Assembly (NCBI RefSeq): GCF_036226525.1 | Contig: NZ_CP108487.1 | Span: 62,001 to 126,000, forward strand | Direction: 5' to 3' | DNA length: 64,000 bases | DNA from: Kribbella sp. NBC_01245 | GTDB taxonomy: Bacteria > Actinomycetota > Actinomycetes > Propionibacteriales > Kribbellaceae | Shown here: positions 2,853 to 5,097 of the stretch, one piece after another | Position numbering within the stretch: position 1 is the stretch's first letter | How the letters are laid out: each line of letters starts with the position of its first letter | The notes under the pieces: generated by a model | What the model was told of the DNA's origin: nothing | Seen by the model: only the letters and a program-made list of their open reading frames with translations | Databases searched by the model: none | Program-made: the position numbers and the translations under genes

Positions 2853-3243
2853 CCTCTCCCCGTTCATCGGGCCCTTGTGACCCGGCGTGTCGCCGTTCAT
2901 CGGTCCCTTCTGACCAATGGCCCGGGCCCTCCGTTCTTTGCATTCATTCGTCGGAATCCGCCCTCTCAGCCACCGCGTTCCGGTACAGGCCGGCGGACGG
3001 GCGAGGGCGGATTCCGACGAATGAATGCAAAGGGTCTGGCCGGCGGCCTTGCCAACGCTTCCGTTCGTGGTCAGAAGCGCCCGATGAACGCCGACACGCC
3101 GCGTCAGAAGGGACCGATGAACGCCAACACGCCGGGGCGGGAGGGGGCGATGGACGGGAGGGGACTGGGTGTTGGCTTAGAGCAGAGTTGCTGGGAGCAG
3201 AAAGGGTGGGGTGGTGGGGGAGGGGGCGGGCAGGGTGGAGGGC
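2853..3243. repeat. Nested repeat block between two genes
   Basis: A gene-free stretch of about 390 bases built from repeats. Two ~33-bp units containing TTCATCGG and CCCTTCTGACC lie at about 2862-2915, and two units in the opposite orientation lie at about 3062-3134, flanking the large perfect palindrome at 2936-3032. The last 100 bases before clpP are G-rich and contain the GGAGG ribosome binding site. The open frames here merely read through the repeats. Confidence 0.65.
2936..3032. repeat. Palindromic repeat, family A, copy 1
   Basis: A perfect 30-bp inverted repeat (arms 2936-2965 and 3003-3032) with a 37-base loop. The arms include the core TTCATTCGTCGGAATCCGCC. A homologous element with 35-bp perfect arms lies at 61668-61773; the loops also share GCGGACGG. 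The element sits downstream of the pentapeptide gene and could act as a transcription terminator, but its dispersed nature points to a repetitive palindromic family. Confidence 0.8.
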
Positions 3244-3852
3244 ATGAGTGATGAGAGCAAGGTGCCGGCGTTTGGTGAGCAGGCGCGGCTGCAGTTGTTG
3301 CGGCGGCGGGTTGTGGTGCTGGACGGGCAGTTGACTGATGACAATGGGACGTTGATCGCGACGCAACTACTGACGTTGGCGGCGGAGGATCCGGATACCG
3401 ATGTGGCGTTGTGGATCCACTCGCTGGGTGGGTCGGTGCCGTCGATGTTGGCGATCCGGGACGTGATGCGGCTGCTGCCGTGCGACGTGGCGACGGTGGC
3501 GCTTGGAGTGGCGTGTAGTGCGGGGCAGTTCCTGCTGTCGGCGGGTACAAAGGGCAAGCGGTATGCGCTGCCGCATGCGCGCGTGCTGATGCACCAGGGC
3601 TCGTCGGGGATCGGCGGGTCGGCGGTCGAGATCGAGATCCAGGCCAACGACCTTCGGCACATCCGGGACACCGTGCTCCGGTTGATCTCGGATGACACCG
3701 GGCAGCCGTTGGAGACCGTGTACGAGGACTCGCTGCACGACCACTGGTACACGGCCGAGGAGGCCCGGGAGTTCGGGTTCGTCGACCACATCGTCACGTC
3801 GTTCGACCAGGTCATGCCAACGCACGCGGTAGAAGGAGAGGCAACCCGATGA
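3244..3852 (+). CDS. clpP: ATP-dependent Clp protease proteolytic subunit (active)
   Basis: A 202-residue ClpP. It should assemble into heptameric rings that degrade substrates delivered by ClpX or ClpC in the cytoplasm. The triad aligns well: Ser92 in [12 protein letters not shown], His117 in [10 protein letters not shown] and Asp162 in EDSLHDHW. The substrate-binding Gly-Gly turn (HSLGGSVPS) is present. I start at ATG 3244, with GGAGG seven bases upstream; the longer frame adds only a Gly-rich extension. The next clpP overlaps its stop (ATGA), so the pair is co-translated. It resembles mycobacterial ClpP1 more than ClpP2. Actinobacteria usually hold two clpP operons; this could be the accessory one, given the divergent partner. 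Confidence 0.95.
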
Positions 3853-4478
3853 GCAGCTACACGATCCCGAACGTGATCACCCAGAGCTCGCGCGGTGAGC
3901 GGATCATGGACGTCTACTCCCATCTCCTCTCCGAGCGGATCATCTACCTCGGCACCGGCATCGACGCCGGGGTGGCGAACGCGATGATCGCCCAGTTGCT
4001 GCACCTGGAGGCGGACAAACCGGAGCAGGACATCAACCTGTACATCAACTGCGAGGGTGGTGACATGACCGCGATGCTGGCGATCTACGACACCATGCGG
4101 TTCATCCGGTCCCCGGTGGCGACGGTCTGCGTCGGGCAGGCGATCGCCGCGGGCGCCGTGCTGCTAGCGGGTGGCGCGCCCGGGCGGCGCGCGGTGCTGC
4201 CGCATGCGCGGGTCGTGCTCCACCAGCCGGCCGGTCGCGGGCAGGGCACCATCCCGGACCTGATCCTCCAGGCCGACGAGGTGGTTCGGGTCCGCAGCCA
4301 GGTCGAGTCGATCCTGGCGGAACACACCGGCCAGACGGTCGAACGCCTTCGCCACGACACCGACCGGGACCACGTCCTCACGCCCGACGCGGCACGCGAG
4401 TACGGCATCGTCGACGAGGTCCTCCGGCACCGCGACTTGCACCCCGCCGCCCAATCGTCATACGCCGCCTCCGCCTAA
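3849..4478 (+). CDS. ClpP-like subunit lacking the catalytic serine
   Basis: A 209-residue ClpP paralogue whose ATG overlaps the upstream clpP stop. The fold is well conserved, including the N-terminal SRGER axial-loop region, YDTMRFI helix, [11 protein letters not shown] (His125) and HDTDRD (Asp). However, the motif that is normally GQAAS reads GQAIA: residue 100, codon GCC at 4146-4148, is Ala where the nucleophilic Ser should be. The oxyanion segment is also odd, with CEGGD instead of SPGGS. The frame is otherwise intact, so this is not a decayed gene but a probable non-catalytic partner forming mixed complexes with the active subunit. It is closest in pattern to mycobacterial ClpP2, which retains Ser. 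Confidence 0.93.
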
Positions 4479-4489
4479 CCCACTACCTT

Positions 4490-4571
4490 CGCCCAACCCG
4501 GCGCCTCGCCCAACCCGGCGCCTCGCCCAACCCGGCGCCTCGCCCAACCCGGCGCCTCGCCCAACCCGGCC
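4490..4571. repeat. 17-bp tandem repeat, about 4.8 copies
   Basis: The unit CGCCCAACCCGGCGCCT is repeated head to tail from 4490, four perfect copies and a partial fifth, in the short gap between clpP-like and the convergent marR gene. It is a minisatellite-like tract with no spacer structure, so not CRISPR. Each unit contains the self-complementary GGCGCC, which could form short hairpins at the 3' ends of both genes. Confidence 0.85.
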
Positions 4572-4623
4572 GCCTCGGCCTGGCGGGCCGGCTTGGCGCG
4601 AGCTGTCGGCTGGTCGGGTGGGG

Positions 4624-5061
4624 TTAGGCGGGGGTGGTGAAGGTGTTTGGGGTGGTGGCGGTGAGTTTGGTGAGGGTGCGCGTGAAGGCTTTGCGTTCCG
4701 ATGCCGGCAGGTCGGCCAGGACGGACTGCAGCTGAACCGTCAGCTCGTCGTGGAAGCGGGCGACGGCTTTCACGCCCTCCGGGGTCAACGCGACGCGGAC
4801 GGCACGGCGGTCGGACGGGTCGGAGCGTCGTACGACGTAGGTCCGTTGCTCGGCGCGGTCGACCAGTCCGGTGAGGCTCGAGCGCTCGAGGCCGAGTAGG
4901 CGGGAGAGGTCGGCCATGCCCTTCGGCTCGTCGGCCAGCGTGCAGAGGAGTTGCGCCTGCGCGGCAGTGAGGTCGCACGCGCGCCCGACATCGGCGTACA
5001 CGGTTTGGATCAGGAAGGTCAGCCGCACCAGACCAGCGACCGGACCAAGGTCGTGCGGCAT
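4624..5061 (-). CDS. MarR-family transcriptional regulator
   Basis: A 145-residue winged-helix repressor of the MarR family. The recognition region reads GMADLSRLLGLERSSLTGLV and the wing SDPSDRRAVRVALTPEG, with the conserved D-x-R-D/S-x-R segment. I start at the internal ATG (5061) because GGAGG lies seven bases upstream; the longer frame would run through the operator region. Two Cys residues (about 29 and 40) near the dimer/effector region could make it redox sensitive, which is inference. It is divergent from the flavin oxidoreductase-hemerythrin gene, and two identical palindromes lie between them, so it most likely represses that gene and itself. Confidence 0.93.
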   Translation of the reverse strand: MPHDLGPVAGLVRLTFLIQTVYADVGRACDLTAAQAQLLCTLADEPKGMADLSRLLGLERSSLTGLVDRAEQRTYVVRRSDPSDRRAVRVALTPEGVKAVARFHDELTVQLQSVLADLPASERKAFTRTLTKLTATTPNTFTTPA

Positions 5062-5084
5062 TGGGAACCTCCGGCTTGTGATTG

Positions 5085-5097
5085 TTCGTGCCACGAA
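5085..5097. promoter_or_regulatory. MarR operator half-site pair 1
   Basis: TTCGTGCCACGAA is a 5-3-5 perfect inverted repeat in the marR/oxidoreductase intergenic region. It shares both arms with the second site at 5106-5118, and the two centres (5091 and 5112) are 21 bp apart, two helical turns, so two dimers would bind the same DNA face. Confidence 0.7.

Follow-up and report, generated by a model that had tools for sequence, protein, structure and literature searches.

A ClpP4-type subunit without the catalytic serine, encoded beside an intact ClpP3-type subunit in Kribbella, is probably a non-cutting docking ring

Why would a soil bacterium keep an intact gene for a ClpP subunit that lacks the catalytic serine, coupled to a second gene whose product has it? 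This question is raised by two adjacent clpP genes, here called A and B, in the genome of Kribbella sp. NBC_01245. They lie in the stretch of 64,000 nucleotides that was analysed (the window, to whose first letter positions refer; Table 1). The genome, 8.68 Mb in one contig, has five clpP genes, and B is the only one in which the triad Ser is replaced; the others besides A, a housekeeping pair and a lone third gene, have full triads. The reading frames of A and B are both complete and overlap in the sequence ATGA (stop TGA of A at 3850–3852, start ATG of B at 3849). Direct reading of the codons gave Ser92 (AGT, 3517–3519), His117 (CAC, 3592–3594) and Asp166 (GAC, 3739–3741) in A, and Ala100 (GCC), His125 (CAC, 4221–4223) and Asp174 (GAC, 4368–4370) in B. 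The original prediction had described an intact clpP gene with Ala for the nucleophile and the His and Asp kept, coupled to an active clpP; the codons bear out the first part, and the overlap and the full triad of A the second. Both proteins match the Pfam family PF00574 (CLP_protease; cut-off 20.2 bits), A with 184.2 bits and B with 228.1 bits; their AlphaFold2 models have a mean pLDDT of 88.8 and 88.3, respectively; and the model of B, with Ala at residue 100, matched solved ClpP chains in a fold search, of which the top-ranked one belongs to a ClpP1P2 complex. B descends from ClpP but is, judged from its sequence, an incomplete serine peptidase, and A has the full Ser-His-Asp triad. B has Ser at residues 2, 3, 13, 14, 24, 28, 88, 150, 154, 203, 204 and 208, none of them within GQAIAAG. 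The surroundings of the pair comprise a gene for a pentapeptide-repeat protein upstream (2040–2852, + strand), a tandem repeat of 5.2 copies of a 17-bp unit just past the stop of B (4489–4577), and a convergent gene for a MarR-type regulator downstream (4624–5094, − strand).

Table 1. Positions in the window of the clpP pair and of the elements discussed in the text.
Feature	Position	Strand	Basis or remark
A, ClpP3-type subunit	3244–3852	+	Full triad; has lost the N-loop motif and residues of the docking patch
B, ClpP4-type subunit	3849–4478	+	Ala100 for the nucleophile; retains the N-loop and the docking Tyr/Phe
GCC codon (Ala100) at the catalytic Ser position of B	4146–4148	+	Codon reading, alignment with relatives
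NCEGGD segment of B, replacing NSPGGS	4047–4064	+	Alignment, codon reading
Tandem 15-bp-spaced inverted-repeat boxes (GGCTTAGAGCAGAGTTGCTGGGAGCA), putative PopR-type operator	3174–3199	+	Conserved upstream of Kribbella pairs

An orthologue of B, one per genome and with an E value below 1e-100, was found in 38 of the 38 Kribbella genomes searched, and position 100 was Ser in 19, Ala in 17 and Gly in two of them. The alanine looked for in orthologues is thus present in the genus, and it occurs outside the genus as well: among 169 loci with relatives of B (duplicates between sources included), position 100 was occupied by Ala (104 loci), Ser (50), Gly (8), Trp (4) or Asp (3), and the partner, a relative of A, had Ser in all 169. 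Among the 80 named relatives kept out of 508, the 20 sequences with at least 79% identity to B all came from Kribbella. A residue private to this strain is ruled out by the 17 genomes that share it, and a residue fixed in Kribbella by the presence of Ser, Ala and Gly; a sequencing error or a pseudogene is ruled out by Ala and Gly in independent genomes together with purifying selection. Since all three residues are found within one genus, the catalytic Ser of Kribbella ClpP4 looks optional rather than specifically replaced. On a codon tree of A plus B with eight outgroup loci, the distribution requires at least five changes if Ala is the ancestral residue and Ser may be regained, and 10 if regain is barred.

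For a view of the whole family, 637 ClpP domains were taken from all loci, and the 572 distinct ones were placed on a tree built without the triad columns, in a single FastTree run with a midpoint root and no ClpR sequence among the tips. B fell with Streptomyces fungicidicus ClpP4 in a clade of 245 ClpP4 proteins (support 0.956), separate from the ClpP2 clade (41 proteins); the other groups were the ClpP1/P3/P5 side (285) and the E. coli reference. The ClpP4 set was gathered by similarity to B and with a profile of 12 ClpP4 proteins, with 51 of the matches outside the genus fetched, and with 30 automatic, 80 chosen high-scoring and then 30 more loci from further searches; it leans to B-like sequences. 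At least one triad residue is missing in 174 of the 245 ClpP4 proteins, a fraction that is rough because of this leaning, and in none of 245 ClpP3, 41 ClpP2 and 40 ClpP1/P5 proteins, zero counts that are the firm part of the comparison. The full triad is accordingly present in 71 ClpP4 proteins and in every member of the other groups (245/245, 41/41 and 40/40). The nucleophile position of ClpP4 is Ala in 116 proteins, Ser in 95, Gly in 15, Glu in 11, Trp in 5, Asp in 2 and Phe in 1. Another residue stands in place of the His in 19 proteins and in place of the Asp in 26, where Asn, His and Thr are among the substitutes. In B the Ser alone is missing, and other ClpP4 proteins lack one or two triad residues. 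In counts of related, not independent, sequences, the His is absent in 16/16 members of family f22 (81–91% identical to S. fungicidicus ClpP4), the Ser, the Asp or both are missing in 17/17 members of f23, Gly replaces Ser in 8/8 members of f39, the Ser is absent in 37/38 Nocardia ClpP4 proteins, and the triad is still intact in 24/34 members of f20. Triad status changed at least 12 times on the tree, or 32 times without regain.

The replacements take several forms. Five distinct proteins of family f3 have Trp at the nucleophile position, and eleven proteins, of family f23, have Glu there, combined with a change of the catalytic Asp to Asn or His. Streptomyces-type ClpP4 (f22) keeps the Ser and has Gly for the catalytic His (HARVLLGQPA), as does the ClpP4 encoded on plasmid p1 of S. 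fungicidicus (locus L176, 4001–4603); the ClpP4 of Streptomyces coelicolor presumably lacks this His too. The catalytic Ser codon of ClpP3 is AGY in 242 of 245 genes (in A, for example, at 3517–3519), and it is mostly TCN in ClpP1/P5, in ClpP2 and in Ser-bearing ClpP4; Ala is reached in one step from TCN and not in one step from AGY.

The two kinds of subunit also differ in features outside the triad. The N-terminal loop motif Y..[ILV]P is present in 244/245 ClpP4 and 38/41 ClpP2 proteins and in 0/245 ClpP3 and 0/40 ClpP1/P5 proteins. In E. coli ClpP, docking-patch positions are Tyr74, Tyr76 and Phe96 (PMC4416901; here and below, statements from cited papers refer to the accessible parts of their texts). 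Position 76 is Tyr in 242/245 ClpP4 and Trp in 172/245 ClpP3 proteins, position 96 is Phe or Tyr in 189/245 and His in 49/245 ClpP4 proteins and Leu in 192/245 ClpP3 proteins, and position 74 is altered in both. The residue before the catalytic Asp is Arg in 216/245 ClpP4 and His in 135/245 ClpP3 proteins; two residues past the catalytic His stands Pro in 244/245 ClpP4 and Gly in 204/245 ClpP3 proteins. On the aligned sequences the loss is reciprocal, ClpP3 having lost docking features and ClpP4 cutting features. The absent N-loop of ClpP3 is read as the older state of the ClpP1/P3/P5 side, because ClpP1 is also without it. That residues kept in B-type subunits are lost in A-type subunits supports, indirectly, ATPase docking through the B-type subunits, as do the publications on the housekeeping pair cited below.

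The region upstream of A suggests how the pair may be controlled. The PopR site of Streptomyces lividans consists of two similar boxes in tandem (PMC9775585, a review), and the boxes upstream of A have a similar arrangement. The box consensus, with up to two mismatches, was found upstream of ClpP3 genes in 38/38 Kribbella loci and 139/207 others, of which the Kribbella count is not independent, the pattern having been written after the Kribbella alignment and the published site were seen, and the count elsewhere is independent. Other upstream regions gave 4/39 (ClpP1/P5) and 0/40 (ClpP2), and single-base shuffles of the 245 upstream regions gave 0.8 matches; the four ClpP1/P5 regions with tandem PopR-like boxes are above the shuffle level. 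The Kribbella form of the pattern occurs once in the genome, at the site in Table 1. This conserved form emerged only when the Kribbella upstream regions were aligned; the plain palindrome TCTGCC-N3-GGCAGA, with up to three mismatches, is not in excess in the window (47 occurrences against a shuffle mean of 41.11). Genome-wide, the exact box pattern is no commoner than a reversed control (of 198 genomes, 12 have the pattern and 19 the control), and its enrichment is local to the regions upstream of clpP3. In 186 of the 207 ClpP4 loci from outside Kribbella, a small gene for a PopR-like helix-turn-helix protein, related to the gene beside Streptomyces clpP4, follows in convergent orientation, and its product ends in -AA in 174 of the 186; no such gene was found in the fetched flanks of the 41 ClpP2 loci or of the 38 Kribbella pairs. 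Two PopR/ClgR homologues are encoded elsewhere in the Kribbella genome. The better match, which ends in -YALVA, is divergent to the lone third-type ClpP gene (genome positions 5931532–5932500), and the second-best ends in -SAA. The -YALVA regulator is possibly the displaced PopR of Kribbella, and we infer from the boxes that the A–B pair is under PopR-type control.

By their gene order, the PopR-like gene that flanks the pair in other genera and the tandem operator, A and B match the PopR-controlled ClpP3/ClpP4 pair of Streptomyces and would be its Kribbella version, an identification that the original prediction had lacked; the overlap and the tree clades are likewise common to both. In S. 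lividans, ClpP3 and ClpP4 have a described backup function (PMC9765437, PMC12607617), and Streptomyces ClpP3P4 is insensitive to ADEP (PMC12607617). The pairs differ in that the PopR-like gene stands beside Streptomyces clpP4 but not beside the Kribbella pair, and in the residue lost: S. fungicidicus ClpP4 keeps the Ser and has Gly for the His, whereas Kribbella B keeps the His and has Ala for the Ser.

The reading that we favour, with a probability of roughly three in four, is a backup Clp core of two rings, one of ClpP3, which is catalytic, and one of ClpP4, which serves docking and assembly and need not be catalytic. A and B would be expressed from a single operon that a PopR-type activator controls, and A would provide peptide-bond cleavage. 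B would fold and assemble as a ClpP with the axial N-loop, the Tyr/Phe patch and the Arg that precedes the catalytic Asp kept, and its ring would dock the Clp ATPase and hold A in the active state. The active site of B would be dispensable and would have decayed, in this genome by the Ser-to-Ala change at residue 100. B is thus probably a non-cutting docking ring for A. The data show the sequences, the operon, their conservation and selection, the repeated triad losses, the reciprocal loss of features and the conserved operator; we infer A–B assembly, the composition of the rings, ATPase docking through B, that B by itself is inactive, and that a PopR homologue controls the pair.

The actinobacterial ClpP1P2 proteases of Streptomyces and Mycobacterium are, like A and B, two-subunit cores, in which the ATPases dock on the ClpP2-type subunit, whose Ser can, in Streptomyces, be mutated without loss (PMC9765437, PMC4416901). 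In Streptomyces ClpP1P2, ClpP2-S131A is fully active and ClpP1-S113A abolishes activity, and the ATPases dock on ClpP2 only (PMC9765437). As the partner of ClpP2 type in the backup pair, B has in Ala100 the natural counterpart of ClpP2-S131A. Unlike ClpP4, every one of the ClpP2 proteins sampled has the full triad. For viability, S. lividans requires either clpP1clpP2 or clpP3clpP4, and each pair suffices (PMC9765437); since the bacterium lives with clpP3clpP4 as its sole pair, a ClpP3P4 core works. If S. lividans ClpP4 also lacks the His, this would already be a working core with a dead subunit. Catalysis by ClpP4 may be useful in some bacteria, because the ClpP4 proteins that keep the full triad include half of those from Kribbella. 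A fuller history, in which ClpP4 became a non-catalytic docking ring many times over in Actinomycetota through different substitutions, the nucleophile of the Kribbella group was lost ancestrally and Ser was regained several times within the genus at a dead site that can be re-activated because its remainder is kept, is offered tentatively, with the odds somewhat against it.

Against the NCBIfam model NF009204, which we take to be that of cyanobacterial ClpR-type proteins, B scored 170 bits, below the cut-off of 263. Cyanobacteria and plastids are known to have inactive ClpR subunits, which are, like B, ClpP-like subunits without a full triad beside an active ClpP; in 2015 the ClpP3/R core was called unique to photosynthetic organisms (PMC4673316). 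Unlike those of ClpR, the triad losses of ClpP4 lie outside photosynthetic organisms, and most copies lack only one residue. B might have no ring of its own and sit in mixed rings with A, as ClpR does in the cyanobacterial ring of three ClpP3 and four ClpR, where a restored catalytic site in ClpR gives no faster core (PMC4673316). However, the related ClpP1P2 of Mycobacterium tuberculosis has one homoheptameric ring of each subunit (PMC4673316), and the reciprocal loss of docking and cutting features would fit separate rings. We consider mixed rings unlikely, with about one chance in seven left to them.

B could also act as a dominant inhibitor or decoy that joins rings of ClpP1, ClpP2 or A and lowers or retunes their activity. 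One ClpP does act on another in an ADEP producer, where ClpP_ADEP blocks ClpP1 assembly (PMC12607617). ClpP_ADEP of Streptomyces hawaiiensis is, like B, an accessory ClpP that alters the make-up of the Clp core; unlike B, it resembles ClpP1, and its core with ClpP2 is active (PMC12607617). A decoy would sit poorly with an intact partner that appears to be co-transcribed with nearly every B-type gene (ClpP3 is encoded directly upstream in 244/245 ClpP4 loci, and in 185 of the 244 the two genes overlap by 4 bases), with the retention of docking features in B-type subunits, and with the sufficiency of clpP3clpP4 for S. lividans noted above. This role is improbable.

The docking-ring reading leaves B without catalysis, and the segment around Cys68 bears on whether B could instead cut with another nucleophile. 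The original prediction had also held the oxyanion segment to be altered. The residues do differ, INSPGGS having become INCEGGD in B, but every one of the 245 ClpP4 proteins has Gly in the glycine column tested, and in this respect the segment is unchanged. The form C-x-G-G-D is present in 139/245 ClpP4 proteins, which group weakly on the tree (support 0.429); 22 of them have a full triad and 117 a triad loss, and of the 106 proteins without this form 57 have a triad loss. The INCEGGD change as a cause of inactivity is thus unsupported. Cys68 is the sole residue in B that could be argued to be a substitute nucleophile, in company with the retained His125 and Asp174, and triad losses are indeed numerous among proteins of the Cys form. 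However, 19 of the 38 Kribbella orthologues combine the Cys form with the usual Ser, and Streptomyces-type and other ClpP4 proteins without the Cys have also lost His, Ser or Asp, all of which makes a Cys68 protease very improbable.

Selection on the two genes was compared by pairwise dN/dS among Kribbella sequences with dS of 0.1–0.9 (686 and 702 of 703 possible pairs). The medians were 0.217 for A and 0.215 for B, and purifying selection acts on both genes alike. For B, Ala–Ala and Ser–Ser pairs did not differ (medians of 0.188 and 0.190), and mixed Ala/Ser pairs were slightly higher (0.223 and 0.240). The idea that B is a functionless gene decaying under relaxed selection, to which the Ser/Ala/Gly variation in one genus might point, is hardly tenable against these values and the presence of an orthologue in every Kribbella genome. 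Of the proposal that a pseudo-subunit is maintained beside an active ClpP, the retention stands and has good support from conservation, from purifying selection and from triad losses that recur in ClpP4 only. The roles suggested for it in ring assembly, adaptor choice or acyldepsipeptide sensitivity are mostly hypothetical.

The accessible parts of the literature searched contain no report of ClpP4 without triad residues that we could find, and such a report may stand in the original clpP3clpP4 papers. If the reading of B as a non-cutting docking ring is correct, subunits with a broken active site would be common in Actinomycetota, including Streptomyces, and would have arisen repeatedly, as natural versions of the engineered Ser-to-Ala experiment on ClpP2. 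The ClpP3/ClpP4 pair would then represent division of labour at its extreme, one subunit cutting and the other docking, and a single genus would offer matched orthologues with Ser, Ala or Gly for probing the use of a second set of active sites. It would also bear on which subunits active-site inhibitors of ClpP could hit in Actinomycetota.
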